32,968 nucleotides of DNA, from assembly GCA_018700525.1 (NCBI GenBank), contig JABITN010000226.1, positions 1 through 32,968 on the forward strand, read 5' to 3'. Under the pieces are notes generated by a model, which saw nothing but the letters and a program-made list of their open reading frames with translations, ran no database searches and was not told where the DNA came from. Both the position numbers and the translations under genes were made by a program. The stretch comes from Opitutales bacterium. Lineage in GTDB: Bacteria; Verrucomicrobiota; Verrucomicrobiia; Opitutales; Opitutaceae. This document shows, one piece after another, positions 8,517 to 31,954 of the stretch (positions are counted from its first letter, which is position 1; the number at the start of each line of letters is the position of its first letter).

Positions 8517-8536
8517 ATATTCAAAAGTATCCAAAG

Positions 8537-10656: not shown

Positions 10657-11567
10657 ATATGACCAGAACGCTCTCAAGTAGCCTCAGTAGAATTTTAATG
10701 GGTACCGTGTTCGTTACGGCGGCGTTCGGATTGCCAGCACCACGGTCGCAGGCTCAGGACACAATCCCGGAAGAAAGAGCAAAAGTGAGTGAGCGGGCTG
10801 AACCTCCTCCGCGGGGCGAACGTGGAGACCGACCCCAACGCGCTGGGAGAACTCGTGGCCCCAGAAGGGCTCCACCACCACAGGCAAACGACGGATCCCG
10901 TCGAGCCGGTACGCCCATGTATACCGAGGCTCCGGATGGCATCGGTGTAACCCTGCGCCAAGGCGCATCACCACTTCCCTACACCAAAGGCACCGTAACC
11001 TACGTACCCTGGGAAGAAGGCTCCAAAATGGATCCGCTTAAGGTGGGCAGTAAACTTCCAAAAAATTCGGTAGCCTGGACAAAGACAGGCTCTGAGTTTA
11101 ATCTCAACAAAGCAGTGAAGGAAAAACCCACGGTCCTTATCTACTACCGAGGCGGTTGGTGCCCGTTTTGCAACGTACATTTGAACGAGCTGCAGACGAG
11201 CATCCCTGCACTTGAAAAACTGGGATACCAGTTACTCGCGGTAAGCACTGATACGGTAGAAGCACTGAAAGCCTATGACGACTCCGAGCTCAAATACCCG
11301 TTGCTGGCTGACCCTGATCTCAAGTTGGCAACGAACCTGGGCATCAAGTACAAGGTGGTAAAAGAATACATCCAGCACGTTAAAGAAATCCCGGATGGGC
11401 GCGCATTCGATATGGAGAAACGCAATGGCGGATTCCTGGTGACGCCCTCAGCCTTTATTCTAGATACAACCGGTACCATACGTTTCGCGTATGCGAACGA
11501 TAACTACACAGTTAGAGCCAGCCAGGATGCGCTACTGAAAGCGGCTAAAGAGGCGTTGGCCAAGTAA
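10653..11567 (+). CDS. Peroxiredoxin-like (AhpC/TSA) protein, secreted
   Basis: 304 residues from ATG 10653 (the ATGA overlap with the upstream remnant decides the start; an ATG 36 bp earlier would add an Arg-rich prefix before the signal peptide). Signal peptide about 1-35, then a Pro/Arg-rich linker (about 45-85), then a thioredoxin-fold domain. IYYRGGWCPFCNVHLNELQ contains the peroxidatic/redox CxxC pair, and YQLLAVSTDTVE, YPLLADPDLKLA and TPSAFILDTTGTIRFAY follow in family order. It probably reduces peroxides or thiols in the periplasm. It opens the non-sulfatase block; codon choice is more CTG/GGC-rich than in the sulfatases. A 385-bp gap follows before the dioxygenase gene. Confidence 0.87.
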   Translation: MNMTRTLSSSLSRILMGTVFVTAAFGLPAPRSQAQDTIPEERAKVSERAEPPPRGERGDRPQRAGRTRGPRRAPPPQANDGSRRAGTPMYTEAPDGIGVTLRQGASPLPYTKGTVTYVPWEEGSKMDPLKVGSKLPKNSVAWTKTGSEFNLNKAVKEKPTVLIYYRGGWCPFCNVHLNELQTSIPALEKLGYQLLAVSTDTVEALKAYDDSELKYPLLADPDLKLATNLGIKYKVVKEYIQHVKEIPDGRAFDMEKRNGGFLVTPSAFILDTTGTIRFAYANDNYTVRASQDALLKAAKEALAK

Positions 11568-11952
11568 TACCGAATTACTCAACCGCGGAGTTCGGGAGGA
11601 TTCAGTTGGACTTTTATTAACCACGGATTTAGAAAGTAAATGAGGAGCTCAGTGCTTCAGCCTGAGTTGCCGTAGGCCAGAGCTCGTCTCGAGATCATGA
11701 GCTTGTAGAATGGCGCTGCCGCGCTTATACCAACAACAAGAGGTCAATAATAACCCCGAAACCTATTTGGCATCGCCAGCCCATTACCGATTCGGCGGGA
11801 CTAGCCACTGCGTCCTCCTTGGTTCGAAGAAGAAACAATGAAGTTAAAAAAAAAGAAGAAGGCATGACACCGATCTCACCAAAACAACAGGTCGACTTTT
11901 AGCGTTTGGTCCGTTTTATACCCAAAAACGTACAATCGATTATCTGTAACCT
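11568..11952. other. 385-bp intergenic region with small inverted repeats
   Basis: No supported gene. TTAACCACGGATTT at 11617-11630 matches the ACCAC-type phrase found in other gaps of the window. Around 11641-11715 the sequence is rich in GAGCTC/TCTCGAGA self-complementary words that could fold. A poly-A tract lies near 11846-11855. No clear promoter could be assigned for the downstream dioxygenase gene. Confidence 0.3.
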
Positions 11953-12946: not shown

Positions 12947-13837
12947 CTATTCAATTGCCTGGGGAGGTATAGATCGCAGGTAGGTGATCACCGCTTCTAA
13001 GTCCTCGTCAGAAATTTTCTTATAGAAATAAAAGGGCATTGCGGGCTGGAGCGGTCGACCATCGCGACTGGTCGCTTCAGTGATAGCCCTTTTTATCTCT
13101 TCGTCCGTCCATCTGCCGATTCCTTGCTCGGGATGGGGTGAGATGTTAGCCGCCACGGCGACCAATTCCATACCATGTGGCTTCACAAACACATTTCCAC
13201 CCGCACCGATTCGGCTTAAATCGGGAGTGCCTTTGACCAGCGGAGTATGACACTCCATACAATGACCCAAAGCGTTGGCCACATAAGCGCCGTAGGCAAG
13301 GGTGTCGTCTGGAGAAATGTCAGGGACGGTATCCACCGGCGGGCCATAAGATTCGGGTAGAGGGATGTTGTACACAGAACGTGGCAGGCTATTTTTCACC
13401 GGAACGACTGTTCTCAGATACGCTACGATCGATCGAACATCGGTGTCTGACATCTCGCGATAGACGCGTGTCGGCATGGGTGGGCCGATGATCGTACCAT
13501 CAGGCCGCACGCCTTCACGGATGACCCGTATAATTTCTTCATCACTCCAGGTACCAATCCCAGTTTCGGGGTCTGGCGTGATATTCGGCGCGTAGGCCGT
13601 GAACTCTGCCCTGTCGACCTGAAATGCACCCGCCAAATGCATTTCGCTGATCGGCTTATGGTCGGTGCCTCTCGGCGTATGGCAATTACCGCAGGCCACA
13701 ATACTATTGACGAGGTAGTCGCCTCGGGCGACTAGCGCCTCCTGTTCCGATGCTTCCGAGCGAGCAAACAAGAAACCGACTACTAAAATAAACGCTTTGA
13801 GATTCGCCGCCGCTTCCGTTGTTGATAGGAAATTCAA
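12947..13837 (-). CDS. Secreted di-haem cytochrome c
   Basis: 296 residues. After a signal segment (about 12-30) come two class-I cytochrome c domains. The first has VACGNCHTPRG (C49, C52, H53) with Met in PPMPTRVY (about M121), and the second has GHCMECHTPLV (C193, C196, H197) with Met in PAMPFYFY (about M267). Each domain ends in a helix of the IVAYLRT / VITYLRS type. The pattern resembles the cytochrome subunits of membrane-bound sugar or alcohol dehydrogenases and thiosulfate-type electron carriers. No dehydrogenase subunit is adjacent, so the partner is unknown. The start is a TTG (13835-13837) because no in-frame ATG precedes the signal sequence; it may be misplaced by a few codons. Its 5' end faces the broken MBL gene. 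Confidence 0.88.
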   Translation of the reverse strand: MNFLSTTEAAANLKAFILVVGFLFARSEASEQEALVARGDYLVNSIVACGNCHTPRGTDHKPISEMHLAGAFQVDRAEFTAYAPNITPDPETGIGTWSDEEIIRVIREGVRPDGTIIGPPMPTRVYREMSDTDVRSIVAYLRTVVPVKNSLPRSVYNIPLPESYGPPVDTVPDISPDDTLAYGAYVANALGHCMECHTPLVKGTPDLSRIGAGGNVFVKPHGMELVAVAANISPHPEQGIGRWTDEEIKRAITEATSRDGRPLQPAMPFYFYKKISDEDLEAVITYLRSIPPQAIE

Positions 13838-17967: not shown

Positions 17968-19491
17968 TCATTTGTCCTTGCTACTCTCGTTCCAAATTTT
18001 GAAATCGCGGATCCCGCCGGAAAACACATCGGGACTGGGGTCATGATTCGGATCGGGCAAAGCGAGTTGAGCGCCGACATCCGCCAAGTAGCCATCTAGG
18101 CTATTGATCAAGGATTCCGTTTTTTCAGGATTCTTCGTAGAAAGATCATTCTTCTCCATGGGATCATCCTTGAGATTGTACACTTCTGTTTTTCCGTCGT
18201 CCGCATACCGCACGACTTTCCAGCCATCAACAATCGCTGAGCTGTACGGTGTCGTCTCGTCGTAATGCGGATAATGCCAATAAAGCGGTCGATCATCGAT
18301 TGAACCAGTACCGGTAAACAGCGGCAAAACGTTAACCCCATCCATATGCTCCTCTGGCTTCAAAGGAGCATCGATATATGAAAGTATTGTTGGATACAAA
18401 TCCATCCCAATCGTCGGGACTTCGCTAACGCCATTCGGTATTCGCGGACCAGTGACAATCAAAGGCACACGAGTGCCACCCTCGTAAGCCGTACCCTTGT
18501 TCCCACGGTAGTTAACCACAAACTCATCGCCCTGACTACCATTGTCACCTGTGAATATAACCAGCGTATTGTCGAGCTGGCCAATATCCTTTAACTTCGC
18601 CATCACTCGACCCACGCTTTCATCCAAGCTCTGAATCATAGCTGCCTTATTGGGATTGTTCATGTAGTACCCCGCATCCGGATTATCAGCCAATTTCTGG
18701 CGGTATTTCTCAACGTATTCAGGCTTTCCTGTAATAGGGCCATGAACCGTGTAATACGAAAAATAGAGAAAAAATGGCTCTTCTTTTTTTCGTTCCAAAA
18801 AATCGATTGCGCAATCGGTGAGCACATCCGTAAGGCATTCTTTTTCACTGCCCTTTCCTTCAAGCCCGGGGAACTTATGGTAATTGGGATAAAAAAAGCT
18901 CCTTCCCTGGTTTGCCGATTGATCACCTCCGTAGTTTTCATCGAAACCATGTTTCTCAGGCATGTGCTCATCATGCATAGCAGCGATCTCTGCGAGTTTC
19001 TTATCATCACCTAAATCAAGTGGCCTTGGTCTCGGGATCAAGTGCCACTTACCGAAAAACCCAGTAGCATAGCCTTGCTCCTTCATGGCTTCGGGCAAGG
19101 TGATGCGCTCATGATCCATATGCGTCTGCCAATCTGGAGTGAGCGTCTTGCGATTGATTTGCTTCTGTCCAGGGATCCAATCCGTCAAATGCAACCGTGC
19201 CGGCGAAAGCCCCGTCAGAAGTGCCGCCCGGCTAGGAGAGCAAAGCGTGGCACCCGAATAAGCGAGGGTAAACCGCATCCCTGATGCCGCCAAAGCGTCA
19301 ATGTTTGGCGTCTCATGGAATTTACTGGCATAGCATTCGAGTTCGCCAGAACCGAGATCATCTACGAGGAAGACGACGATGTTGGGTTTGCCTTCTGCGG
19401 CCCAGACCGAGAATGAGAACCAAACACTCAGAATAACACTAATGACCTTAACAATGCATACACGCGGAGAGACAAAAGACTGACTGGACAT
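17968..19491 (-). CDS. Sulfatase (CSPSR type, S1_16-like), secreted
   Basis: 507 residues. The N-terminal signal is unusually long (hydrophobic stretch about 13-31, ending VWAAEG). FLVDDLGSGELECYASKF carries the metal pair, and Cys84 in LCSPSRAALLTGLSPARLHLTDW is the formylglycine site. FFGKWHL, YTVHGPITGKPEYVEKY and FTGDNGSQGDEF with YRGNKGTAYEGGTRVP complete the site. The LTDWIPG stretch after the signature and the HGPI/EYVEKY block are shared with the sulfatase at 26931-28583, so the two are paralogues. Relatives act on sulfated galactose or uronic/deoxy sugars; specificity is not readable here. It is the last intact gene of the second sulfatase run, 20 bp after the DUF6807-dehydrogenase gene. 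Confidence 0.92.
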   Translation of the reverse strand: MSSQSFVSPRVCIVKVISVILSVWFSFSVWAAEGKPNIVVFLVDDLGSGELECYASKFHETPNIDALAASGMRFTLAYSGATLCSPSRAALLTGLSPARLHLTDWIPGQKQINRKTLTPDWQTHMDHERITLPEAMKEQGYATGFFGKWHLIPRPRPLDLGDDKKLAEIAAMHDEHMPEKHGFDENYGGDQSANQGRSFFYPNYHKFPGLEGKGSEKECLTDVLTDCAIDFLERKKEEPFFLYFSYYTVHGPITGKPEYVEKYRQKLADNPDAGYYMNNPNKAAMIQSLDESVGRVMAKLKDIGQLDNTLVIFTGDNGSQGDEFVVNYRGNKGTAYEGGTRVPLIVTGPRIPNGVSEVPTIGMDLYPTILSYIDAPLKPEEHMDGVNVLPLFTGTGSIDDRPLYWHYPHYDETTPYSSAIVDGWKVVRYADDGKTEVYNLKDDPMEKNDLSTKNPEKTESLINSLDGYLADVGAQLALPDPNHDPSPDVFSGGIRDFKIWNESSKDK

Positions 19492-19511
19492 AATTATATT
19501 GGTATAAAAAA

Positions 19512-22500
19512 CTACTCGATTGGGTGATCCGTCCGCAAATAGGCGATCAAATCACGAACCTGCCCGTCATCCAAAGCAGCAAGCAAGCCTTCCGGCATCA
19601 TGGATACTGGTAATGTTTCCCGGGAGAGGATATCGGACTTTGAGACAATCACGTCCTGGCCGATCATGCGAAGGGTTACTTGATTGTCGTCCTCATTAGC
19701 GACATTGCCCGCGAACGTGCGTCCATCTTGGGTGTTGATAGTCACAAGCTGGTATCCCTCGGGAATCTCGCTGCTGGGATCGAGCATGTTGGTGAGGATG
19801 TAATCGAGATCAGCCCGATTCGAGCCGGTTATGTCCGGACCAATTTCGCCGCCTTCGCCATAGAGTTTGTGACAGGACGCGCAGCTTTGTTCGAACAAGG
19901 CCTTGCCCGCCATGAGATCGGCGTCGGAGAGATAATCGTCCGTGAGCAGAATTTGATACCGGTCCATGACAATTCTCTTGTCCTTGGCAAGCGGGTTAGC
20001 CTCGATCGCTCCTCCCCAATAGTCGACGAAGCTCGGACCGATTACGCGGCTCATTTGACGTGCAGATACGGCGGATATATCATTCTTAGGCACGTCTCCG
20101 GCCCTTAACGAATCCATCAGTATTCGGGCGGTTTCTCGACGCGCAGCCAAGGTTTGAATCGCGACCGACTTTTCCGCCGCATTAAATCGACTATACCGAT
20201 TCAGGATTTCGCGTGGAACGCTATCCCGATCATAAGCCCCCAAAGCCCGCAATGCCGACTCCCGTAGGTCCGCATCATCGAGAAAACCGACAATGGACGG
20301 AAACGCAGGGCCATAGATTTCACGACCGAAGCTTGTGAGAATTTCTTTTCGTTGTTCCAAGTCTGTATCCGGATCTTGGAGCTGAGCCAATCGGGCTTTG
20401 CCCGCTTCGGCACTCCCAAACAAATGCCCGAGGTTCAGGGCGAGATTCCGCTCTTGGTCAGTCCCGGACGCCAGCAAACGCCCTTCCAATGCGGACCATC
20501 CTCGCGGAGCCTGTAAGTAGCGCTGCCCGGCAAGACCGTCACGCATTCCTTCCAACAGGGTGACGCGCATAGTCGACGAATCCGTTTTACTAATCACGGC
20601 AACAAGAGCGTCGAGCTTCTCGGCCGCCACTGCCCGTCGGGCGATGTGGTTTGAAATCATGGGAATCTCGCTCTCGAGAGCTTGGTTCAGGGCCACTTTC
20701 GTAGAGCCCGCCACGTAGGGCTCCACGCCGAACCAAATCATGTTGGGCAAATTGTGGTCATCCGCGTCGCCCGCGTGACCAACCAGTCCCTCAGCCACTT
20801 GCCATACATTCGTTTCTGGAATGCGTTGCAGAGCGGAAGCGAGATATAGGCGGGTCACCGGAGACGGATCATTAGCCGCCATTTCCTTGAACTTGCTTAG
20901 CGCCTTTCGTCCCGGATCCATGTCCTCGCAGAGAAGCTGGATCGCCCACGCTCGAATATGGGCATCGGAATGCTCCAGCAGATTTGTCAATTGACCTTGG
21001 CTCGCGCCGCCGGTCACATGCAAGGCCCACAGGGAGCGCAACCTGCGACCGGTGTCTGAACCCGATTGGAATTGTTCCCAGAGCGCGGCGTGAACGTTAC
21101 TTGACAGAATTTCCTCTTCAGCGCGTTGCTGCAATAATACGCGGGCTCTGCGTACGTACCAATCGTTTCGATGGTGTTGCAAATCCACGAGCTCTTCATC
21201 CGATAGCTTCGCTAAATTGAGTCCTGCCTTCCCTGAATGGCCCGGGGGAGCGACTCGGTAGATGCGTCCGGTATCCTTTTCGAATACGTCGATGCCACAA
21301 ATATCCGGATCGTGCCAGTCGAGGATATAAACCGCCCCATCGGGACCAATCTCGATACTAAATCCGATCCATTGGCCATCGTTGGCCAGCACCGCGTCAT
21401 CTCCATGGTGACCGACAAATCCTGAACCCTTGGGTTCTAGGATATCCGTCAAAAGGGCGTGCTCATGGATGTTGGCCATGAAGATGCGGTTGTGATAGCG
21501 TTCCGGTAAGGCATCAGCCAGGTAGATCCGAGCTCCGCCGTGAGCGGATCGGTGCCGATGATTCGTGATTGTCTGGATATCCGAATACACGTAGGGATTG
21601 ACATGGCTCCCTCCTTGGCGGTGGTAGATTCCACCAGGAACGACGTGCCAAAGGTGCGGAATGACACAGGCGGAGATGAAAATCTGCCCATTGTCATCGA
21701 AGTCCATTCCCCAGGGATTGCTAAATCCATGGGCGACTACTTCGAACCGATCCTTAATCGGGTGATAACGAAAAATGCCGCCATCGATATACTGGGGATC
21801 TTCCACTTCCTGGTTCTCAGGAAAGGCTTCGCCATGGCGATAGATGCGCCCTTCGCCAATGGGCTTGCCTACAACCGACGGCGTAGCAAAGCCCTGACAA
21901 CCATACAACCAGCCATCGGGACCCCAAATAAAACTATTGAGTACTTCGTGCCGGTCGCGAATGCCCCAGCCCGTCAGACGAATTTCTATGTCGTCCACGT
22001 CGGCCTTGTCGTCACCATCCCGATCGGGAACGAAAAGCAGATTGGGCGGGGCTCCAAGCCACAATCCATCAAATCCCCATGCGAGGGCCGACGGAAAAGG
22101 TATTCCGTCCATGAATACCTTTCGAGTATCCATTTCTCCGTCGCCATCCACATCTTCAAGGATTAGAATGCGGCTATTCCCGTCCGCGGAGAAACCCGTT
22201 CGTCGCGTTTCGTAGTCCCGGTTTTCGGCTACCCAAAGCCGTCCTCGATCGTCCCAGCAAAAAGCCATCGGCTGGGTGATTGCCGGTTCGGATGCATAAA
22301 GATTCACTTCCAATCCATCCGCCACAGTCATTGCTTCGACCGCTTCCTCGCCCGTGAGAAAGGCTGCTTGCCGCGACTCGTTTCTCGCCGCAACCCACTC
22401 CGCACTATTGTATCTTTGCTCACCGTACGCTAGCCACTTTTCATTCAATTCGACATCGTTCAATTCACCTGTGTAAACGACGAATTGATGTTTGAAGGTT

Positions 22501-23294
22501 TCGATCGATCCTGCAGGAATCTTCCAGTCGCCCAGTTGAGACCGGGCCGGGCCCACACCCATCTTGCGATCAACTCGCCAAGGCATAGGAAACGTCGTAT
22601 TCTCCGGATGATCGAATATAGCAATATGTCCCCAATCGTCGCGACCCTCTATCTCCATGCCTACGTCTACCCACGTAGCACGTTGTTCATTGGCTCTACT
22701 GTTCACCTGTCGCGAACTATTCACCACTTTGCCGTCAATCTCCTCGCTCCATGGCATACGGAGGAACAATCCTCCGTAATCGTATTCGGAAATCGTTACT
22801 TCAGTATGCGCCTTTCCGCTCCAAACGAGGTCTAGAAAATACCTTTCCCCCGTATCGCGCATGGACCAAACCTGCGACTCTTCCATCAAAGCCGTTCCCT
22901 CTTCATCCAATAAATGATAGACAGTTTCCCATTGCACGACCTCACCGGTCGCTGCGAGTATATTGGATTCAACGAGCTGCCAGTATCCATCTGATGGATT
23001 ATGAAAGTAATCGCGTCCATTGAGGTGCGTAAATCCCCAATACAAGCCCGTTTGATGCACATGGTGGCCCGGACTATATTCAGTAAGAATGCCATTTCCG
23101 TCAGGTGATACGATGGGATGCAGATACGGACGGTGATCGGCACGCGCATTTTGCACGAGAATCGCATCCGAGCTATCATCCCGAAATACGGATATCGTTT
23201 CATCATCCTCGTTTTCGACCAGCCGCAGCGGATCTGCAAAAAGCAACCCACAACTAGTCAAAGCGTATCCAAAAAATGCAGCGTATTTTTTCAT
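19512..23294 (-). CDS. DUF6807 (PmoA-like) + PVC-type dehydrogenase propeller + HEAT + cytochrome c fusion
   Basis: 1260 residues from ATG 23292-23294; an in-frame TTG 57 bp upstream overlaps a repeat and would precede the signal peptide. Order: signal peptide (1-20); DUF6807 (about 30-290) with YLHPIVSPDG, GHHVHQTGLYWGF and GHIAIFDHPEN; dehydrogenase-type propeller (about 310-690) with QPMAFCWDDRGRLWVAEN, DGDGEMD, RHEVLNSFIWGPDGWLYG, FSNPWGMDFDDNGQIFIS and SAHGGARIYL; HEAT-like helices (about 700-1095); cytochrome c with CASCHKLYGEGGEIGPD (haem Cys about 1138 and 1141) and a C-terminal VSMMPEGLLAAL Met-ligand region. It probably binds or oxidises a sugar in the periplasm and passes electrons to haem. 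It sits between the split paralogue and a sulfatase in one operon. Confidence 0.87.
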   Translation of the reverse strand: MKKYAAFFGYALTSCGLLFADPLRLVENEDDETISVFRDDSSDAILVQNARADHRPYLHPIVSPDGNGILTEYSPGHHVHQTGLYWGFTHLNGRDYFHNPSDGYWQLVESNILAATGEVVQWETVYHLLDEEGTALMEESQVWSMRDTGERYFLDLVWSGKAHTEVTISEYDYGGLFLRMPWSEEIDGKVVNSSRQVNSRANEQRATWVDVGMEIEGRDDWGHIAIFDHPENTTFPMPWRVDRKMGVGPARSQLGDWKIPAGSIETFKHQFVVYTGELNDVELNEKWLAYGEQRYNSAEWVAARNESRQAAFLTGEEAVEAMTVADGLEVNLYASEPAITQPMAFCWDDRGRLWVAENRDYETRRTGFSADGNSRILILEDVDGDGEMDTRKVFMDGIPFPSALAWGFDGLWLGAPPNLLFVPDRDGDDKADVDDIEIRLTGWGIRDRHEVLNSFIWGPDGWLYGCQGFATPSVVGKPIGEGRIYRHGEAFPENQEVEDPQYIDGGIFRYHPIKDRFEVVAHGFSNPWGMDFDDNGQIFISACVIPHLWHVVPGGIYHRQGGSHVNPYVYSDIQTITNHRHRSAHGGARIYLADALPERYHNRIFMANIHEHALLTDILEPKGSGFVGHHGDDAVLANDGQWIGFSIEIGPDGAVYILDWHDPDICGIDVFEKDTGRIYRVAPPGHSGKAGLNLAKLSDEELVDLQHHRNDWYVRRARVLLQQRAEEEILSSNVHAALWEQFQSGSDTGRRLRSLWALHVTGGASQGQLTNLLEHSDAHIRAWAIQLLCEDMDPGRKALSKFKEMAANDPSPVTRLYLASALQRIPETNVWQVAEGLVGHAGDADDHNLPNMIWFGVEPYVAGSTKVALNQALESEIPMISNHIARRAVAAEKLDALVAVISKTDSSTMRVTLLEGMRDGLAGQRYLQAPRGWSALEGRLLASGTDQERNLALNLGHLFGSAEAGKARLAQLQDPDTDLEQRKEILTSFGREIYGPAFPSIVGFLDDADLRESALRALGAYDRDSVPREILNRYSRFNAAEKSVAIQTLAARRETARILMDSLRAGDVPKNDISAVSARQMSRVIGPSFVDYWGGAIEANPLAKDKRIVMDRYQILLTDDYLSDADLMAGKALFEQSCASCHKLYGEGGEIGPDITGSNRADLDYILTNMLDPSSEIPEGYQLVTINTQDGRTFAGNVANEDDNQVTLRMIGQDVIVSKSDILSRETLPVSMMPEGLLAALDDGQVRDLIAYLRTDHPIE

Positions 23295-23330
23295 TAATCT
23301 ATAGTTTAGCAAAAAACATCTACGTCTGAC

Positions 23331-23345
23331 TGTGAAATCCGTGGG
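23331..23345. repeat. Partial CCCACGGATTTCACA-type repeat
   Basis: Read on the minus strand the 15 bases are CCCACGGATTTCACA, the phrase found (as ACCACGGATTT) at 11619-11630 and related to the hairpin repeats in other gaps. It lies across the 3' end of the preceding dehydrogenase gene's short spacer, just before the DUF6807-fusion start. No second arm is visible, so this is a half-element. Confidence 0.4.
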
Positions 23346-23356
23346 CCACACCTCGC

Positions 23357-25702
23357 CTACTCGCTCACCAATTCAACTTTACTCCAATACCCAGATGCAT
23401 CATCCGAGTCATTGGCCCTATGCTCGAGTACAATCTCGACCATCGTACCCGCAAACTCAGTCAAATCGACCTCACTATCCAGCCACTCGTCCTGAATCGT
23501 CTCATGGCTAACCTCCTGCTCCAATAGAGCCTTTCGTCCCACCACAACGCGCAGCTTCCAATCCCCGTGAGGATGATAGCTCGTTCGAAGTTTGAGCGTT
23601 GTCGTCTTTTCTTTCGGAATCGAAACATTGCGAGACAACCGGGCTCTACCGAATCTACCAGTAGGCTGGGTTCTCAGCGCGACTTCGTTGCGAAAGCTAT
23701 CCAGTATTTCCACGGGTGCTCTGTCACTATAACGAAAGCCTGGGGCTACCTTGCTAACCAACGCATTAAAATCCGGTCCCGATTTCTCCTCCGTTTCGAG
23801 CATTCGTCTTGGAACAAACTCTTGAAGATTGGGTGCTCCGGAATTGATGGCCAATGCAAGAGCTCGGTCGGCGTTACCCGGAACCATAGGTTCCAGCGCG
23901 AACCATAACATTCTAGGAATGTTCGCATCCTCCCGATCCTCTTCACGACTCGCTAATGTTTCCAGAATCGGCCAACGATCCTCGAATTCCATTCGCTGCA
24001 AGGCCGATGCCAAATAGAGGCGCACCACTGGCGATGAATCATTTTTCGCCATCTGTTTAAATCGCGATAATGTATTCGCAGAAAAATCACGATCTTCCCC
24101 AAGTAATTGAATCGCCCAAGCCCGGCAATACTCGTCTTCATGATCGAGCAGGTAGTTAAACCGATTCTCTCCTTCGCTTCCTCCAAAATAACCCGTCACC
24201 CAAGCCGCCCAAATCATCCGCAGGCGTTTCCCCGAGTTCGGAGCATCGAAGAATTGTTCAACGAGTTTTTCATGAACCGAATATTTATCCAATTCTCCAG
24301 ACGCCGCTCTCTCTTGCAAGATAGTCCGAGCATGCCGTACATACCAATCATTCGAATGCTTTTGCATTTCTACAAGTTCAAGATCCGAAAGCTCTCGCAA
24401 ATTGGGTTGAGCGATTTTCGGAGCATCCTCCGGTAGGATCCGATAGATCCGTCCGCTATTGGGAAAGTTGATCGCATTTCCGCAAATATCCGTGTCGTGC
24501 CAATCAAGGATGTACACTCCCCCTTCTGGGCCGATTTCCACGCTAAACCCAACCCAAGCCAGATCGTTGATTGGCAGGAAGTCATCGCCATGACTCCCGA
24601 TATATCCTGAACCCGATCGCGTCATAACATCGGTCAACACTTCATGCTGGTGAATATTGCACATGAAAAGCCGGTCTCGATATTCCGCCGGAAATGTATC
24701 CGCTAAATAAAAACGCGCTCCACCATGAGCTGACTTATGCGTGTGATCGCGAATCGTCTTGATATCGTCATAGATAAATGGATTCACATGAGCACGGCTC
24801 TGCTTGTGGTAGACTCCCCCCTGAGAAACATGAAAGAGATGCGGAATCACGCAACAGGTCGCGAAGCCCTGCCCCTGATCATTAAAATCGAATCCCCAAG
24901 GGTTGGATAAGCCTCGAGCGAATATCTCAAATTCGTGTTTCGTGGGATGGTAGCGCCAGATGCCAGCATCTATAAACTGGCGATCCGCGTCGCTTGTGCC
25001 GGGCTTTCCGACATTTGAATGAGTGAATACACCATGACATCCATACAACCAGCCATCCGGCCCCCAAATGAAACTATTTAAGGTTTCATGCCTGTCGTTG
25101 ATTCCCCAGCCATCCAACAGTACCTGAGCAGGCCCATCCGGCACATCGTCTCCATCCGCGTCTGGAATGAAACTCAAGTTAGGGGGCGACCCTAAGTAGA
25201 CACCTCCGAATCCCACAGCGATTCCCGAGCTGAATGTAATATCATCCATAAAAATCTTCTTCTTGTCGAAGACGCCATCTCCATCCGTATCCTCCAAAAT
25301 CTTGATACGGCTAATTTTCTCTGTGGTATGTGTTCGCCTGTTTACATAGTTGATATTTTCAACTACCCAAATTCGTCCGCGGTCATCGAAGCAAAACGCA
25401 ATAGGCTCCGCGATATCCGGCTCCGCCGCGAAGATGGAAACATCAAAGCCATCGGGGATATCCATTTTCGCAACCGCCTCTGTCGGCGTGAGAAACGGCG
25501 CGTTGCTCGTTTTTGGTTCCTGGGCGAATGAAGAAACCGTTAGCAGAAGCCCACACACAGCTGCCACCCCAATGTCGCTACGTCGCAGCGCGGCGAGGAC
25601 AATATTCAATCGGAACCCACGAGAGTCCCTCGCGTAGCTACGTCGCGAATGCGGCGTGGATCTTTCATTCGTACTCAAAAATCGTTTTACTACATTCATC
25701 AT
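23357..25702 (-). CDS. PVC-type dehydrogenase propeller + HEAT protein lacking the cytochrome c domain
   Basis: 781 residues. The propeller (about 85-450) has EPIAFCFDDRGRIWVVEN, DTDGDGVFDKKKIF, RHETLNSFIWGPDGWLYG, LSNPWGFDFNDQGQGF and SAHGGARFYL. HEAT-like helices (about 460-670) align with the fusion paralogue at 19512-23294 up to LDALVAVISK / FNALVSKVAP. Where the paralogue continues into more HEAT and cytochrome c, this protein instead has about 120 residues of predicted beta structure (TTTLKLRTSYHPHGDWKLRV ... YWSKVELVSE), possibly a carbohydrate-binding-like sandwich. No CxxCH is present. The missing half is the adjacent upstream gene, whose stop overlaps this ATG as ATGA. The N-terminal 45 residues before the hydrophobic signal are encoded partly by a repeat element, so the true start could be internal. 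Confidence 0.85.
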   Translation of the reverse strand: MMNVVKRFLSTNERSTPHSRRSYARDSRGFRLNIVLAALRRSDIGVAAVCGLLLTVSSFAQEPKTSNAPFLTPTEAVAKMDIPDGFDVSIFAAEPDIAEPIAFCFDDRGRIWVVENINYVNRRTHTTEKISRIKILEDTDGDGVFDKKKIFMDDITFSSGIAVGFGGVYLGSPPNLSFIPDADGDDVPDGPAQVLLDGWGINDRHETLNSFIWGPDGWLYGCHGVFTHSNVGKPGTSDADRQFIDAGIWRYHPTKHEFEIFARGLSNPWGFDFNDQGQGFATCCVIPHLFHVSQGGVYHKQSRAHVNPFIYDDIKTIRDHTHKSAHGGARFYLADTFPAEYRDRLFMCNIHQHEVLTDVMTRSGSGYIGSHGDDFLPINDLAWVGFSVEIGPEGGVYILDWHDTDICGNAINFPNSGRIYRILPEDAPKIAQPNLRELSDLELVEMQKHSNDWYVRHARTILQERAASGELDKYSVHEKLVEQFFDAPNSGKRLRMIWAAWVTGYFGGSEGENRFNYLLDHEDEYCRAWAIQLLGEDRDFSANTLSRFKQMAKNDSSPVVRLYLASALQRMEFEDRWPILETLASREEDREDANIPRMLWFALEPMVPGNADRALALAINSGAPNLQEFVPRRMLETEEKSGPDFNALVSKVAPGFRYSDRAPVEILDSFRNEVALRTQPTGRFGRARLSRNVSIPKEKTTTLKLRTSYHPHGDWKLRVVVGRKALLEQEVSHETIQDEWLDSEVDLTEFAGTMVEIVLEHRANDSDDASGYWSKVELVSE
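25577..25656. repeat. REP-like repeat inside the signal-peptide region of the 781-residue gene
   Basis: GCTACGTCGCAGCGCGGCG (25577-25595) recurs as GCTACGTCGCGAATGCGGCG (25637-25656), with a 10-bp palindrome CGTAGCTACG across 25633-25642 and CTCTCG/CGAGAG-type words between. On the coding strand it is translated in frame into SRRSYARDSRGF and ALRRSDIG just before the hydrophobic core. The base composition differs from the rest of the gene. Confidence 0.5.
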
Positions 25703-26889
25703 TTCGCTATTTTTAAAGGTTCTTCTGTTCTTAAATACTGTATCAAGTTTGCCACTTCATTGTCTTTTAAAGTCATCAATAGTCCTTCTGGCATCATCGA
25801 AATGTCCGAAACGACCCGCGACTGAATGTCCGCTTTCGCTACAATTTGCTTTTGCCCTACCGCATTAAGGACAATGCGACGACCGTCTTCCTCCGAAACC
25901 GCTCCCACAAGTGTTTGTCCGTCGTGGGTCGTGACCGTCACCATTTTGTAGCTGTCCGGAATATCGTCGCTCGGGTCTAGAATATTCAATAGTATGTAGT
26001 CGAGATTCGCTCGATTCGAACCGGTAAGATCGGGGCCAATTACACCTCCTGTTCCATACATTATGTGGCACGCCAAACAGGTTCGGTCGAAAATCGCTTT
26101 TCCTAGAACCGCGTCCGCAGTCGCCATCGTCTCGGGAGTTAATAAATTCCGATACTTCTCGAACAATGCGCTCTTATCACTTGAGAGGGCCGCTACGTCT
26201 CCATAGACCTCTGAAAATTCCGAGCCGAGCATCGACTCCAACGTTCGAGCCGCGTAACTGGGGATCTCGTTCTTCTCAATCACTCCGTTTCGCAAGGCGT
26301 CAAGCAGTTCCTCTGCATACTCACTACGCGTTACTAGAGTTTCCACAACCACTCGCCGGTCGGACGCGCCAAACGTTTTGTATCTACTGAGCAGCAATTG
26401 AGCCGCTCCCGGCTGAGGCATCACTCCGAATGCTCGAATCGCCGATGTTCTCAAATGACGATCATCGAGAAACGCTTCTAGTTCCGTCGCCAAATCCGTA
26501 TTTCGCTGCGTCAACAAGGACCTCAATGCACTCTCGCGTTCGTCTACCCCCGCTAATGTATTCCGCACTGTATTCAATGCTTCAAGGGCAGCGTTTTCAT
26601 CCCCAAAAATCTGGGAAAGCTCCTGTAGCAATCGTTTGGCCTCGGTATCCTCGCTCGCTGACAATCGCTCACGCACGTCCCCCCAAGAAGCCGGAGCATC
26701 GACATTCCTACGTCCTTCCAAGCTTTTAAGCATACCTCGCATTAGCGAGACCTGAACCTTTTCATTATTCGAGCTCGCTATCGTGTTCGCCAACATCTGC
26801 AAAGTGCTGGACTCGCTTGCTTCGCCCATAAACGAGCAACATAAAAAGAACCCCAAAAGGGCTAAGCCTATTTTTCGATACTTTCGCAT
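25699..26889 (-). CDS. HEAT + cytochrome c protein: detached C-terminal half of a PVC-type dehydrogenase
   Basis: 396 residues, signal peptide 1-23. From residue 29 it aligns with the DUF6807-fusion paralogue's C-terminal third: ASSNNEKVQVSLMRGML corresponds to KTDSSTMRVTLLEGMR. It then gives helical repeats, FLDDRHLRTSAIRAFG, and the haem domain RTCLACHIMYGTGGVIGPDLTGSNRANLDYILLN (C271, C274, H275). SDISMMPEGLLMTLKDNEVANLIQYLRT closes the domain, with the Met ligand. In this family the cytochrome normally lies at the C-terminus of the dehydrogenase; here it is a separate secreted protein encoded upstream and coupled by a 4-bp ATGA overlap. The two products presumably form a complex in the periplasm. 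Confidence 0.87.
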   Translation of the reverse strand: MRKYRKIGLALLGFFLCCSFMGEASESSTLQMLANTIASSNNEKVQVSLMRGMLKSLEGRRNVDAPASWGDVRERLSASEDTEAKRLLQELSQIFGDENAALEALNTVRNTLAGVDERESALRSLLTQRNTDLATELEAFLDDRHLRTSAIRAFGVMPQPGAAQLLLSRYKTFGASDRRVVVETLVTRSEYAEELLDALRNGVIEKNEIPSYAARTLESMLGSEFSEVYGDVAALSSDKSALFEKYRNLLTPETMATADAVLGKAIFDRTCLACHIMYGTGGVIGPDLTGSNRANLDYILLNILDPSDDIPDSYKMVTVTTHDGQTLVGAVSEEDGRRIVLNAVGQKQIVAKADIQSRVVSDISMMPEGLLMTLKDNEVANLIQYLRTEEPLKIAK

Positions 26890-26930
26890 TCGTACTTATC
26901 AGTATAAAAATCTATTCTCTAATATTGATT

Positions 26931-28583
26931 TCAGCGACGCTGACCATTCCCTTGATTGAGATTAGCTTCACGAGACCATTTATGAGGATCAACTTCAACG
27001 TAGTCCGGATTCAACGACGGCATTTGCGCGTCTAGTGAGTCGCGCCAAGCATGTAACATAGCGGTTAGTTCTTTCGTTTTGGCCGGATTGGATTTCGAAA
27101 GATCGTTTTGTTCACCGATATCTTCATTTAAATTGAATAACTGAACTGTGTTGTTCTCGTAGTACTCGAGCAATTTGTATTCTCCCGCTCGAATAGCCCC
27201 TGCCGGCGGCTGCATCCCATGATTGCTGTAATGCGGGAAATGCCAGTAAATGGCGTCGCGATCCAAAGTCTTCGCTCCCTTTAGAATTGGGGCAATACTC
27301 ACACCATCCGCGTGCTGCGACTCCACAAGAGGAAGTCCCGCCATTTCTAGAATCGAAGGATAAAAATCGTTACTGATAATAGGTTCATCCGATACCGTCC
27401 CTGCCTGTCCTTGTCCCGGCCATTTCACAATACACGGGACCCGAATTCCTCCTTCGTAAAGCCAGCCTTTCGCTCCACGCAGCGGCAAGACTGACGTTGA
27501 GAACGCTCTATCGAGCTCATCTGCAGTCACGGTCCGCGTCGGAAAATGAATATTCATTCCCGCCATGCCTCCATTGTCGGCAAAAAAAATGACGATCGTA
27601 TTATCGTCGATGCCCAGTTCCTCAAGGCGTTCGACTATTCGGCCAAAACTCTGATCAACGGCTTCGACCATACCTGCAAATTGCGTATTATCCTGAAACT
27701 GCTTTATCTTTACCGTATGTTGGGGCAGGACGCCATACTCCGCAAACGCGGGATCCGATAGCGCCTCGTCCAAGTACTCGCGAGAAAGAGGCTCAGCCAA
27801 GTCAGGATTTCCTTCCAATGCATAGGGAACGTTTCCTTTCGGCGGGTTTGCTTTCAGTTTGGCCTCGTACTTTTCCACTAAATCCGGACGACCATGAATG
27901 GGGTCGTGCACCGCAAAATGAGCCATATAAAGAAAGAAGGGACTGTCTTTGTTATCCTCAATAAACCCGATCGCCTCGTCCGTGAGCCGATCAGTCAAAT
28001 ACTCCCCTTCCGGAGCGTCTTCCAGTCCTTCTAAATTATAGGGAGCGTAGAAAGTTCGATTCGGAGCGCCGCGCGACCAATTCCTTGGAATGTGCCAATC
28101 AAACCCATGCTTGTCAGGCGTATGCGGCGTACTGCCCAGGTGCCACTTGCCTACCGCAGCCGACTTATAACCGTGACCTCGCAAGGTTTCCGCAATTGTC
28201 TCCTCCTTGTAAGGAAGTTCCTGGCCTGTTCGTACATTGAGATATTTTTGAAACGGATAATCCAAACGTCCAGAAATCCAGTCCGTCATGCGGTTGCGAG
28301 CTGGATACTTTCCTGTCAGAATGCTAGATCGTGTCGGCGAGCACACATGACAAGCTGCATAAGCGCTGGTAAACTTAACGCCTTTAGTCGCGAACTGATC
28401 GATATGCGGCGTTTCGTAAAAGCTGCTACCGAAGGATCCCACATCAGTCCAACCCAGATCATCAACGAGGAAGAAAACGACGTTGGGAGGCCTATCCGAA
28501 TTGCCCTCATCTGCTGATAGGGAACACCCAACCAATAGCCATATCGGAATCAAACGAATACAATAGTATAATTTTAGCCTCAT
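26931..28583 (-). CDS. Sulfatase lipoprotein (CSPTR type, S1_16-like)
   Basis: 550 residues. Residues 12-20 read PIWLLVGCS; LVGC is a good lipobox with Cys20, so this sulfatase is probably lipid-anchored, unlike the others here, which carry plain signal peptides. FLVDDLGWTDVGSFGSSFYETP holds the metal pair and Cys81 in VCSPTRSSILTGKYPARNRMTDW is the formylglycine site. VGKWHLG, FAVHDPIHGRPDLVEKY and FFADNGGMAGM with LRGAKGWLYEGGIRVP finish the active site. It is a paralogue of 17968-19491 and carries an insertion of about 45 residues before FFADNG. It lies 41 bp upstream of the cytochrome gene in the same operon. A polar tail rich in Asn/Gln follows the catalytic domain. Confidence 0.92.
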   Translation of the reverse strand: MRLKLYYCIRLIPIWLLVGCSLSADEGNSDRPPNVVFFLVDDLGWTDVGSFGSSFYETPHIDQFATKGVKFTSAYAACHVCSPTRSSILTGKYPARNRMTDWISGRLDYPFQKYLNVRTGQELPYKEETIAETLRGHGYKSAAVGKWHLGSTPHTPDKHGFDWHIPRNWSRGAPNRTFYAPYNLEGLEDAPEGEYLTDRLTDEAIGFIEDNKDSPFFLYMAHFAVHDPIHGRPDLVEKYEAKLKANPPKGNVPYALEGNPDLAEPLSREYLDEALSDPAFAEYGVLPQHTVKIKQFQDNTQFAGMVEAVDQSFGRIVERLEELGIDDNTIVIFFADNGGMAGMNIHFPTRTVTADELDRAFSTSVLPLRGAKGWLYEGGIRVPCIVKWPGQGQAGTVSDEPIISNDFYPSILEMAGLPLVESQHADGVSIAPILKGAKTLDRDAIYWHFPHYSNHGMQPPAGAIRAGEYKLLEYYENNTVQLFNLNEDIGEQNDLSKSNPAKTKELTAMLHAWRDSLDAQMPSLNPDYVEVDPHKWSREANLNQGNGQRR

Positions 28584-28625
28584 AGAAATTTCAGCATATT
28601 CAAATTCGAGCCAATAGGTTTTTCA

Positions 28626-30008
28626 TTACTTAACGTTTTCTTTTGGTAGTGATTGTTTCAGTTTTGAGATCACCCTGGAAAACTCAGGATTCGCTGCCAA
28701 ATTTTTCCATTCGTTGGGATCTGAATCGTGATCGTACAATTCTTCGCCTCCGTCGTTGTATCTTATATAGCGCCAGCGATCTGTGCGTATTGCGTGATTT
28801 TGGTATCCGAAAGTAGTTAACACAGGACGCTCCCATTTCTTGTTCGGGTTATTCAACAAAGGCACCAAACTCTGTCCATCCAAACTGTCGCTAAGTGGCA
28901 ATCCGCACATGTCTAAGAGAGTCGGATACAAATCCACCAAACTCACGGGACGGTCGCACAATTCATTCTGTGCCACGCCTTCGGGTCCCGCGATTACTAA
29001 AGTGGTTCGCGTGGTTACTTCCCAAAGAGCGTGCTTCCGCCAATGCTGTTTTTCACCTAAATGCCAACCATGGTCGCCCCATAGTACGATAATCGTGTTG
29101 TCCGCGTGTTCACTCGCTTCCAAAGCATCCAGGAGACGGCCCACATGAGCATCGACATAACTGATAGTAGCCAAATAGCTCTGCACGGCCCGCTTCCATT
29201 GTTTGTGTTTCAACACCATATCGTGGTCTTCGCCGTGCCTAGCGAAATTTCGGGCGCCGGAAACATCATGGACTTCTACAGCAAACCGCTTGCCCCAATC
29301 CGGAAGATCATCTCGGTCACTATCCAGTGTATCCGGAAGGATAATATCCTCAATCGGATGCAAGTCGAAGTACTTTCGTGGAGCAAACCATGGCATGTGC
29401 GGCTTGGTAAAACCGCAGGCTATAAAAAACGGCGTGTCGTGCGATTTGCCCAGTTCGGCGATTGCCCAATCGACATTCTTCACATCGAACAACTCGGACT
29501 CTTCTACGTCTAGTGGACCCCAAGGAGCCCAGGCCTCTTTCGGCAGGTACGCATCTCGTTCGCCCGCGTGTCGATCGCGCTGGGGCTGATTGTAATAGTC
29601 CCACGATTCCGGATCGTAGGGGGAACTGCCGTGAAAGGTTTTGCCACCCCCTTGAACCGTATAACCCCCTTTGCTGCGCAGGTATTGCATCAACGTAACG
29701 GCATCGGGAACCTTGGTTCGCATCATTTCGCCATTTCCGTAAACCCCAGTATTCGAAGGTAAAAGACCTGTGAACAAACTGACCCGCGAGGGATTGCAAA
29801 GCGGCGCATTGCAATAGGCTTTGGTAAAGGAAACGCCACGCTTGGCGAGCCGGTCGATGTTTGGGGTCTTGGCTTGCGGATGCCCGCCTAAGTGCCCTAC
29901 CCAGCTGTTCAAGTCATCGATGGGAATGAAGAGTACATTGGGCTTTTCCGTTCCCAGAAATGGGACAAGGGAAAGCCAAAGAGCTATGAATAAAAATAAC
30001 GTCTTCAT
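28626..30008 (-). CDS. Iduronate-2-sulfatase-like sulfatase, secreted
   Basis: 460 residues, signal peptide 1-20. IPIDDLNSWVGHLGGHPQAKTPNIDRLAKRG is the opening typical of the iduronate-2-sulfatase branch (SulfAtlas S1_7-like). Cys71 in LCNPSRVSLFTGLLPSNTGVYGNG is the formylglycine site. GGGKTFHG provides the Lys/His at the GKWHLG position, CGFTKPHMPWFAP is the family block, and LWGDHGWHLGEKQHWRKHALWE carries the last metal ligands. No paralogue lies in the window. It would remove 2-O-sulfate from a uronic acid or similar sugar; the substrate is inferred by family only. It lies between two other sulfatases, with 42 bp to the next gene and a hairpin repeat upstream. Confidence 0.92.
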   Translation of the reverse strand: MKTLFLFIALWLSLVPFLGTEKPNVLFIPIDDLNSWVGHLGGHPQAKTPNIDRLAKRGVSFTKAYCNAPLCNPSRVSLFTGLLPSNTGVYGNGEMMRTKVPDAVTLMQYLRSKGGYTVQGGGKTFHGSSPYDPESWDYYNQPQRDRHAGERDAYLPKEAWAPWGPLDVEESELFDVKNVDWAIAELGKSHDTPFFIACGFTKPHMPWFAPRKYFDLHPIEDIILPDTLDSDRDDLPDWGKRFAVEVHDVSGARNFARHGEDHDMVLKHKQWKRAVQSYLATISYVDAHVGRLLDALEASEHADNTIIVLWGDHGWHLGEKQHWRKHALWEVTTRTTLVIAGPEGVAQNELCDRPVSLVDLYPTLLDMCGLPLSDSLDGQSLVPLLNNPNKKWERPVLTTFGYQNHAIRTDRWRYIRYNDGGEELYDHDSDPNEWKNLAANPEFSRVISKLKQSLPKENVK

Positions 30009-30030
30009 TATATTGATACAAAATAATCTT

Positions 30031-30090
30031 CCACAGATTCTTCAGATGACACAGATTTAATAAATCCAATAAAAACCTGAGTGATCTGTC
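30031..30090. repeat. Intergenic inverted repeat, CCACAGATT type
   Basis: ACAGATTCTTCAG (30033-30045) faces CTGAGTGATCTGT (30077-30089), whose reverse complement is ACAGATCACTCAG, matching 10 of 13 positions. A second ACACAGATTT word follows at 30050-30058. It fills the gap between the sulfatase stop at 30116 and the next start at 30008, the same kind of position as the repeats at 3351 and 4955. Confidence 0.55.
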
Positions 30091-30115
30091 AGCAAAGGGT
30101 CATTACTCCTAACAT

Positions 30116-31954
30116 TCATTTCTTCGTCACATACACGTAGTACGCGCTCAGAATTGTACTTAAGTTTCCGCCTCCTCTATGGCCAGCACCTCCCCGAAAC
30201 CAAGTATGCAATGCGATGGGGCCCTTTTCCAACTGGGCAGTGAACGTAACTGAAGTGTCGTTCGGTCCGATCTGTTTCGTCTCTCCCTCGAATCCATAAG
30301 CGGTCTTTTCGCTAATACTTAAGTGATGGTAGTTACTCAGATAAAAGCTCGCTTGAGTAATCGGGATTGCACCTTGGCCATCCTCCGATGGAGCTACCAG
30401 AGGACGATCGATTTCCTTCGGCCAACGACGAAGCTCGAAATCATATTCCCCGGGCTCAGCTACCTCCAACATCCAGTAGCCTGTTTTGTGCTGTCCAACA
30501 CGAATCTGCCTTTGCTGATCAATAAATACGTCCAGCCACTCGCAGCCTGTTAAGCGCGACGGATTTTCGTGCTCGCTGCCGATAATCACCCGCTGAACGT
30601 CATTGGCATTTGGCCCTACGTCGGCCCACCAATCATCCAGCTTGCCTCGCATCTTAGACAGGACCTTCGGATACTTATCGATCACGTTGTTTTGCTGCAG
30701 CGGATCGGTCTCAAGATTGTAGAGCTCGCGATCTTCAAGCAATCGCCAGCGCTTCCAGAGTACCTCACCCATATTCCGCTGCATGAGCGTCTGAGCGAAC
30801 GGGGTTGGGTAATTAACGAAACTGGGCATGCGGCTGTAGTTGATCACCAGCATCCGATCTTTAGGAACGACCGCTTTTCCTTTCAAAATAGAGGCCAGGC
30901 TCATTCCGTCGAACTTGGCGTCGTTGGGAATGCTGCAGAGATCAAGTAGCGTTGGCAGCATATCCTGAACTTGCGTGAGCCCTTGGATATCCTGCGGCTC
31001 CAACAAACCGCCGTTCGGCCAACTGATGAAGCAAGGAACGCGATGGCCTCCTTCCCACAATTCCGTTTTCCCACCCCGCATTCCAGCGTTGTAGTAACGT
31101 GGGCCGTGAGTGCTGCCATTGTCGGTCTGAAAAATTACAATTGTGTCATCTTTAATACCTTCGTCGGCAAGAAACTTCATCATCGCCCCCATGTTCTCAT
31201 CGATGTTCAAGATCATGCCCAAGTAGTCGGCCAGACGGACCTTCATCGCGGGATCGATGTCATCGAACTCCGGTTGATCGAGGATCTTCTTGATTGCAGC
31301 CTCATCCTTGTCCTTCGCAACCAAGGGACCGTGTGGCGTATTGGGCATGATGATGGATAGGAACGGTTTTCCCTGTCGGGCAGCCTGCTTCATGAATGAC
31401 ATGCTCTCCTCAAAGAAAACATCGGTGCAGTAGCCCTTGTACTTCTTCCACTTCCCATTGTTCACGTAGGTGTCGTCAAAGTAATCATTACCCCAAAAAT
31501 CCGGAACGGATCCAATGTGGGAGGAAGGAAACCAGCAGGTCTCATCAAATCCTCGATCTTCGGGACGAAAAGGATAGTTGGAACCCAAATGCCACTTGCC
31601 AAATAGGCCGGTCTCATATCCGGCGTCCCCAAAGAAGTTTGCCATAATCGGCACCTCCGGTCGCAACAGTCCGCGCCCGCTGCTTACATTGATGCACCCG
31701 TTCCGGGCCGCATCCAAGCCCGTCATCAGCTGACCGCGCGTGGGCGCGCACATGGGAGACACGTGGTAGTCTTCCAAGCGCAGACTCTCGCTGTGCAGGT
31801 CATCGAGGTGCGGCGTCTTTAGGATCGGATTTCCGTTAACCGACAACTCCGGGTAGCCCTGGTCATCGGTCATGACGATGATGATGTTGGGCTGCTTAGC
31901 CAGCGCCGCTGTAGCGATGAGGCTTACGATTATGAGGGGAACGAGTGATTTCAT
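30116..31954 (-). CDS. Arylsulfatase-like sulfatase (CAPTR type), paralogue of 5024-6841
   Basis: 612 residues, signal peptide 1-19. Metal-binding TDDQGYPELSVNGNPILKTPHL is nearly identical to the 5024-6841 enzyme. Cys69 in MCAPTRGQLMTGLDAARN is the formylglycine site; LFGKWHLGSNYPFRPEDRGFDE, NTPHGPL, FQTDNGSTHG and RGGKTELWEGGHRVP follow. The same C-terminal beta-rich region is kept (GSEHENPSRLTGCEWLDVFID, MLEVAEPGEYDFELRRWPKE), with a short Gly-rich loop (RGGAGHRGGGN) not present in the paralogue. High similarity over the full length suggests duplication with the upstream neighbour, since both pairs have the same order. It starts 28 bp after the stop of the edge-cut sulfatase. Confidence 0.93.
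   Translation of the reverse strand: MKSLVPLIIVSLIATAALAKQPNIIIVMTDDQGYPELSVNGNPILKTPHLDDLHSESLRLEDYHVSPMCAPTRGQLMTGLDAARNGCINVSSGRGLLRPEVPIMANFFGDAGYETGLFGKWHLGSNYPFRPEDRGFDETCWFPSSHIGSVPDFWGNDYFDDTYVNNGKWKKYKGYCTDVFFEESMSFMKQAARQGKPFLSIIMPNTPHGPLVAKDKDEAAIKKILDQPEFDDIDPAMKVRLADYLGMILNIDENMGAMMKFLADEGIKDDTIVIFQTDNGSTHGPRYYNAGMRGGKTELWEGGHRVPCFISWPNGGLLEPQDIQGLTQVQDMLPTLLDLCSIPNDAKFDGMSLASILKGKAVVPKDRMLVINYSRMPSFVNYPTPFAQTLMQRNMGEVLWKRWRLLEDRELYNLETDPLQQNNVIDKYPKVLSKMRGKLDDWWADVGPNANDVQRVIIGSEHENPSRLTGCEWLDVFIDQQRQIRVGQHKTGYWMLEVAEPGEYDFELRRWPKEIDRPLVAPSEDGQGAIPITQASFYLSNYHHLSISEKTAYGFEGETKQIGPNDTSVTFTAQLEKGPIALHTWFRGGAGHRGGGNLSTILSAYYVYVTKK

Follow-up and report, generated by a model that had tools for sequence, protein, structure and literature searches.

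The stretch of DNA analysed here, called the window, comprises positions 1 to 32,968 of contig JABITN010000226.1 (assembly GCA_018700525.1) from an Opitutales bacterium. On its minus strand, a gene for a HEAT-cytochrome c protein of 396 amino acids (aa) is followed by a gene for a 781-aa propeller-HEAT protein and then by a fused paralogue with these parts in one chain (Table 1). This gene order and the coupling of the pair through an ATGA overlap had been proposed in the original prediction and are borne out by the open reading frames (ORFs). The 781-aa protein is a member of TIGR02604 (327.5 bits against a cut-off of 122.2, NCBIfam) and of DUF7133 (PF23500; 207.2 against 27 bits, Pfam), while the 396-aa protein belongs to TIGR02603 (120.3 bits against a cut-off of 68.15, NCBIfam), contains a CLACH motif and has a hydrophobic, by eye signal-peptide-like N-terminus. 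HEAT repeats are recognised by Pfam and NCBIfam in the 781-aa and fused proteins, with a weak match in the 396-aa protein. The fused paralogue is a member of both TIGR02604 and TIGR02603, in agreement with the predicted one-chain propeller-HEAT-cytochrome c protein; the prediction had overlooked its N-terminal DUF6807 domain (NCBIfam, Pfam).

The products of the pair match opposite parts of the fused paralogue. The 781-aa protein aligns to fused residues 302-922 at 50% identity (315/633) and the 396-aa protein to residues 888-1260 at 38% (143/373), and an alignment of the two with each other gives no real match (best 19 bits, E 0.38). The halves are complementary without overlap, as had been expected of a split; overlapping HEAT halves are ruled out by the pairwise alignments and by an analysis of the solenoid helices. 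In an AlphaFold2 model of fused residues 300-1260 (19 sequences, mean predicted local distance difference test (pLDDT) score 81.9, predicted template modelling (pTM) score 0.75), the cut corresponds to loop residues 891-893, with helix 878-890 on one side and helix 894-903 on the other. Helices run unbroken through this region of the model, with pLDDT blocks of 90-93, and their pairing suggests that the cut lies at the boundary between two HEAT repeats. The break residues named in the prediction, LDALVAVISK and FNALVSKVAP, do not mark matching ends. LDALVAVISK, in the fused chain, forms the first helix of the cytochrome part and aligns instead with LQMLANTIAS, at the start of the separate cytochrome half. 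FNALVSKVAP is where a C-terminal beta module begins. The leading block of this module, A-P-x-F, is the same in 17/17 aligned copies, one of which follows a cytochrome (L115; loci are numbered with L and genomes with G).

The swapped order was found with unbroken genes in 32 loci, window included and each genome counted once. These belong to Opitutales/Opitutia, Verrucomicrobiales (including Rubritalea profundi and Akkermansiaceae bins), planctomycetes and one Lentisphaerales bin. The arrangement is thus not local; the original prediction had suggested a survey of the Planctomycetes-Verrucomicrobia-Chlamydiae (PVC) group for the same split. The cytochrome half comes first on the same strand in 32/32 loci, with a spacing of -13 to +33 bp that is exactly -4 in 18 of them. 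Of 85 relatives obtained by scanning a genome collection with the split cytochrome half through two peptide patterns, the best 80 were kept. By domain mapping, the 24 loci L073-L096 have the swapped order, with some of them truncated at contig ends and the cytochrome gene broken in L075; in L113 a broken cytochrome gene precedes the propeller gene. Six more planctomycete pairs (L205-L210) came from a beta-module profile search of 16 locus-bearing genomes, and the further swapped loci are L263 (from the Verrucomicrobiota survey), L064 in G010 and the window. Propeller genes are cut by contig ends in four of the 32 loci (L079, L082, L086, and L092). The loci were selected for carrying both genes, with lone halves under-sampled. 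L093/L096 and L078/L084 are near copies, which makes the number of independent cases smaller than 32. The arrangement is rare, with 3/387 sampled Verrucomicrobiota genomes (G000, which is the window genome, G010, and G244) and 1/392 Planctomycetota genomes (G423, a chosen centre). Both rates are lower bounds, since no more than four candidates were scored in each genome, under strict E-values, and centre genomes were included. The Verrucomicrobiota survey also gave a 248-aa match in G256. Because relatives in other phyla have the same arrangement, the cut is old and probably functional. Read-through, chance and assembly artefact are ruled out as its source by the identical layout in 32 loci.

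Phylogenetic trees of the two halves, from which 35 loci were skipped (same-genome duplicates, truncated or divergent rows), give them the same history. In the cytochrome-half tree (51 rows), 25 swapped rows form one clade (support 100/99) that is sister to nine fused rows (100/99; union 100/100), and the remaining rows are fused except for L102, a split in natural order, and L098, which is cut by a contig end. In the propeller-half tree (47 rows), 24 swapped rows likewise form one clade (100/100), sister to nine fused rows (100/100; union 100/100). This agreement suggests that both halves most likely derive from one fused ancestor by one event, and since fused acidobacterial rows are the most distant in the cytochrome-half tree, a fused ancestor is favoured. 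That a fused gene was split naturally and its parts exchanged in order, as predicted, is upheld by the position of both halves, sister to the fused DUF6807 form. The pair has the properties of a fission product, with complementary halves that occupy the same place in both trees, beside fused forms. Against this direction of change stands the fact that the roots were set at midpoints for drawing, and the nesting within fused forms assumes that the root is not inside the split clade.

Table 1 Positions of the split pair, its domains, the fused paralogue and the adjoining sulfatase gene in the window
Feature	Position	Strand	Details
Cytochrome gene, the upstream member of the pair	25699..26889	(-)	396 aa; ORF; CHEAT + cytochrome c
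CHEAT, C-terminal half of the HEAT solenoid	26140..26814	(-)	Residues 26-250 of the 396-aa protein; profile map
Cytochrome c domain (TIGR02603)	25714..26121	(-)	Residues 257-392 of the 396-aa protein; NCBIfam, profile map
Haem-binding motif CLACH	26065..26079	(-)	CxxCH in 32/32 loci
SMMPE, likely distal Met haem ligand	25786..25800	(-)	Strict pattern in 23/32 loci
ATGA stop/start overlap coupling the two genes	25699..25702	(-)	Spacing exactly -4 in 18/32 loci
Propeller gene, the downstream member of the pair	23357..25702	(-)	781 aa; ORF; propeller + NHEAT + beta module
Propeller (DUF7133/TIGR02604)	24413..25504	(-)	Residues 67-430 of the 781-aa protein; pyrroloquinoline quinone (PQQ) sugar dehydrogenase fold
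NHEAT, N-terminal half of the HEAT solenoid	23768..24412	(-)	Residues 431-645 of the 781-aa protein; profile map, model helices
Beta module, mobile jelly roll resembling carbohydrate-binding modules	23360..23761	(-)	Residues 648-781 of the 781-aa protein
Fused paralogue DUF6807-propeller-HEAT-cytochrome c	19512..23294 (ATG at 23294)	(-)	1260 aa; in the sister clade of the pair
Seam position in the fused gene	20616..20624	(-)	Loop residues 891-893; AlphaFold2 model
Sulfatase directly upstream of the pair	26931..28583	(-)	Pfam Sulfatase, 199.4 bits

The same seam is cut in other loci that retain the natural gene order. In the planctomycete survey, 77/392 genomes have a match at E 1e-60 or better, and 12 of the listed matches lie in frames shorter than 700 aa. 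By inspection, these are one swapped pair (G423), six natural-order splits, an isolated cytochrome half (L251), three genes cut by contig ends (L250, L256, and L259) and one ambiguous case near a contig start (L261). Together with L102 there are seven natural-order loci (L249, L252, L253, L254, L255, and L257 being the others); the contig of L252 stops short of the propeller, and the NHEAT tail there was identified by visual inspection. Also by eye, propeller genes of natural splits without an added domain stop a few residues past the last NHEAT helix, and their cytochrome genes start with a hydrophobic leader followed by the first CHEAT helix. LamG-like stretches, likewise identified by eye, follow NHEAT in L249 and, similarly, lie at the end of L252. 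A separate observation concerns L253 (4261-10213, minus strand), where two tandem propeller-HEAT frames precede one HEAT-cytochrome gene in natural order.

To place these loci, we used a quick tree of 63 rows, with 14 duplicate or near-copy loci dropped from 77. The swapped form is one clade (99), and the natural splits need six changes, at least two of which are forced by starred branches; change counts cannot separate a new split from a re-fusion. Approximately unbiased (AU) tests, made on this tree with its long branches and uncorrected for several tests, reject all splits as one event (p-AU 0.0003) and, more weakly, the seven natural-order splits as one event (p 0.018, or 0.027 without the long-branched L257). 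Given these rejections, the natural-order loci probably reflect two or more further cuts, unless some fused forms have re-fused. The search for splits is blind to cuts that leave the cytochrome domain alone, so any preference for this seam is relative to the cuts that the search could see.

The fused propeller-HEAT-cytochrome c protein appears to have been broken in the ancestor of the swapped clade at the loop between two HEAT helices. The simplest route to the swapped order would be for the fused gene to have been duplicated in tandem, each copy then losing a different half. No tandem of two fused genes was seen. Within the same genus, the fused sister gene follows immediately after the pair in the window, in L061 and, spread over two contigs (L063 and L218), in G003. 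The corresponding place in G010 (L064) holds only a free-standing DUF6807 gene of 294 aa (10915-11799), where relatives have the whole fused paralogue. In a tree of 15 DUF6807 rows, with bootstrap values that had not settled, the DUF6807 that lies next to or within the split loci L064, L083, and L093/L096 groups with that of fused proteins; the order of events is not given by this tree. In L083 (6993-9074), DUF6807 runs straight into the HEAT-cytochrome half and the propeller half lies next to it, an arrangement that looks like the fused protein with its middle excised.

A different route, which concerns the origin only and is weighed apart from function, would be fission in natural order first, with the gene order exchanged later. 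The seven natural-order splits at the same seam make this a possibility that deserves attention, but it is the less favoured one, since no natural-order split adjoins the swapped clade, whose sister is fused, and since a single clade of all splits is rejected by the AU test above. That the separate genes are original and the fused proteins arose by later fusion is very improbable. Fusion is a common event in bacteria and the tree roots were drawn as midpoints rather than inferred, but fused rows lie on both sides of the sister group of the swapped clade, the fused acidobacterial rows are the most distant in the trees of both halves, and natural splits are scattered among fused rows. An assembly error or pseudogene has a negligible probability and is already refuted for the clade, because, despite an in-frame stop in the cytochrome gene of G003 (L063, 3147-4334; contig coverage 4, maybe a sequencing error) and the broken gene in L113, the genes are open in 32 loci, including the single-contig same-genus genomes G007 and G010 and the complete chromosome of K23_9.

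The beta module at the end of the split propeller protein had been predicted to be a novelty replacing the lost cytochrome. This is not supported, since the same module sits behind the cytochrome of fused proteins (L211, which is L115, and L213, as well as the frame-broken L212) and forms the terminal part of two sulfatases (L216 and L217), as profile matches show. A beta domain unique to the split form is rejected on the same grounds. These locations indicate a mobile module, and its presence behind fused cytochromes suggests that the split clade may have kept rather than gained it. The five complete members mapped from the fused sister clade (the window, L061, L070, L071, and L097) end soon after the cytochrome, and among 57 relatives of the window genome the module is found almost only on split propellers (six genomes, with one further short match in G010). 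Residues 648-781 form nine strands in the AlphaFold model of the split propeller protein and have no Pfam match at E 0.1. A Foldseek search with the whole split model, from which matches were assigned to these residues by length and strands, identifies a jelly-roll fold, with CBM61 (2xom, E 8.7e-5, TMt 0.62) and a porphyran-binding carbohydrate-binding module (8xmz, E 1.1e-4) as matches. Other matches of this size are to CBM6 and CBM4, and the carbohydrate-binding set as a whole has E-values of about 1e-4 to 1e-3. The first row of the search is a Bt crystal toxin, presumably matched through the jelly-roll domain of the toxin itself.

The propeller of the fused fragment has the fold of PQQ sugar dehydrogenases, with best matches to 3a9g (Z 28.2, root-mean-square deviation 3.0 over 288 residues) and the AA12 enzyme 6h7t (Z 28.1), and other propellers at about 23. 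For the propeller of the split protein, the values are Z 18.5 (6h7t) and 18.4 (3a9g), with other propellers at about 16-17. A Foldseek search with the whole fused model returns mostly HEAT and armadillo proteins, besides 7zs0-7zs2 and a few propellers. At the sequence level, a propeller profile gives a marginal match to the E. coli aldose sugar dehydrogenase 2g8s (E 0.01), and a search of PDB sequences with the split propeller finds nothing at E 0.01. Neighbours or fusion partners in some loci include ThuA, DUF6807, SMP-30 lactonase, mandelate-racemase-type enolase and GFO/IDH/MocA proteins (Pfam), and one fused relative contains a 3-keto-disaccharide hydrolase (Pfam). Sulfatase-like genes are present in 18/32 loci, a count without a background rate, and eight sulfatase genes surround the pair in the window (Pfam; 3438-10277 and 17968-31954, minus strand). 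Together, the fold, the neighbours and fusion partners, and the sulfatases suggest that the substrates oxidised are sugars, often derived from sulfated polysaccharides.

Based on these features, the pair probably encodes a periplasmic two-subunit sugar or glycoside dehydrogenase, often located in sulfatase clusters, that is re-formed across the broken HEAT solenoid. Both halves would be exported and would dock end to end through the cut solenoid to act as one periplasmic dehydrogenase. The propeller may oxidise a sugar or glycoside freed from sulfated polysaccharide, with the beta module helping to hold the carbohydrate, and electrons would reach the haem c of the small subunit and, from there, the respiratory chain. 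The two seam helices keep their conserved hydrophobic positions at 0.88 and 0.90, compared with 0.90-1.00 for the other 20 solenoid helices. This is expected if they are still buried and is compatible with re-association, without proving it.

Several points weigh against this assignment. The seam-helix retention rests on eight positions, is among the lowest in the solenoid and falls the most relative to fused rows (0.97 to 0.88). Confidence in the model of the split propeller protein is low (pTM 0.62, mean pLDDT 70 with stretches of the propeller below 50), and with this model sugar dehydrogenases score little higher than other propellers (Z 18.5 versus 16.8). No sulfatase is seen in 14/32 loci, several of which are on short contigs. 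Of the genes for PQQ synthesis, pqqE is above the cut-off in 0/12 genomes, yet also in 0/14 controls, and pqqC is found in 0/12 genomes, with no control positive either, so these searches are uninformative and PQQ use is unsupported. Own synthesis is not strictly required for a supply of PQQ. Further, the sole assayed relative, the fused family member Lac161_ORF7, acts on lactose (Km 1.8 mM), which is in line with a sugar substrate, but is described in the available text of PMC5342196 as a hydrolytic beta-galactosidase, not a dehydrogenase.

This hydrolytic activity would also fit halves that no longer cooperate, the cytochrome half being a free or shared carrier for several dehydrogenase paralogues and the propeller working without haem, through another acceptor or by non-redox glycoside cleavage. 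We consider this rather unlikely. An isolated cytochrome half does exist (L251), and 43 TIGR02604 matches occur in the window genome, a number that includes separate fragments of the same gene. The cytochrome half is also fused to ThuA in L084, L085, L087, L094, and L263 and to DUF6807 in L083, indicating that re-tethering is possible; ThuA is fused to the propeller half in L088 and L090. Against uncoupled halves, the genes are adjacent in the same order in 32/32 loci, with a 4-bp overlap in 18, albeit in loci chosen for both genes, and the seam helices remain mostly hydrophobic. A related observation in L090 (3228-6599) is a ThuA-DUF7133 protein with a terminal plastocyanin-like copper-binding domain.

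While a re-formed two-subunit dehydrogenase is the preferred reading of the pair, a broader and more tentative idea takes in the whole family. The inter-HEAT loop might be a repeatedly used disconnect point in PVC lineages, and in one of them the cytochrome half might have turned into a plug-in redox subunit, docking without covalent bonds at the exposed end of the solenoid, re-tethered to changing partners (none, DUF6807, ThuA) and perhaps serving more than one propeller.

Both domain families and the fused form are already known, and the split swapped arrangement is real and old; the mechanism proposed for it is unproven. PVC-type heme-binding CxxCH proteins such as Lac161_ORF7 combine the same three domains, TIGR02604, HEAT and TIGR02603, in one chain (PMC5342196, in the text available), whereas the window pair has two chains, a reversed gene order and a beta module on the propeller chain. 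Soluble glucose and aldose sugar dehydrogenases that depend on PQQ (3a9g, 2ism, and 2g8s) share the propeller fold with the family (fused-form Z 28.2). In contrast to these enzymes, the family adds HEAT, cytochrome c and the beta module, and the split protein has no sequence kin in the PDB at E 0.01. The AA12 quinohaemoprotein pyranose dehydrogenase of Coprinopsis cinerea has the same design of propeller, cytochrome and carbohydrate-binding module (PMC4332668, available part), and the AA12 propeller 6jt5 is a fold match to propellers of the window family. However, the fungal enzyme is a single chain with haem b rather than c, and HEAT is not named in the available part of PMC4332668. The C-terminal domain of the diheme cytochrome c Kustd1711 (7zs0) is homologous to the cytochrome domain of the pair (E 6.4e-14) and its haem ligation is given as His/Met in the accessible portion of PMC11791136; unlike the pair, Kustd1711 is diheme, has 316 residues and lacks a propeller. 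In planctomycete-specific cytochrome c (PSCyt) gene groups, cytochrome genes of PVC bacteria also lie close to sulfatases, in some cases with carbohydrate-binding modules, but the domain sets are different, and a swapped split pair is not mentioned in the part of PMC5615132 available. No account of a split or swapped form of the family was found in searches of the open-access PMC literature.

The locus amounts to a natural protein-splitting experiment in which one enzyme was apparently cut more than once at one seam, with one line reversing the gene order and keeping it across phyla. Such seams offer evolution-tested break points for building two-part redox enzymes. The pair also offers a way into a large PVC oxidoreductase family that has been little studied, lies here amid sulfatase genes and may take part in the breakdown of sulfated sugars.

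Two further genes of the window deserve mention. A 296-aa protein with two cytochrome c stretches (12947-13837, minus strand; Pfam) is a possible electron acceptor for the pair, and a ThuA-family gene (2443-3330, minus strand) belongs to the same family as the ThuA domains fused to either half in other loci.

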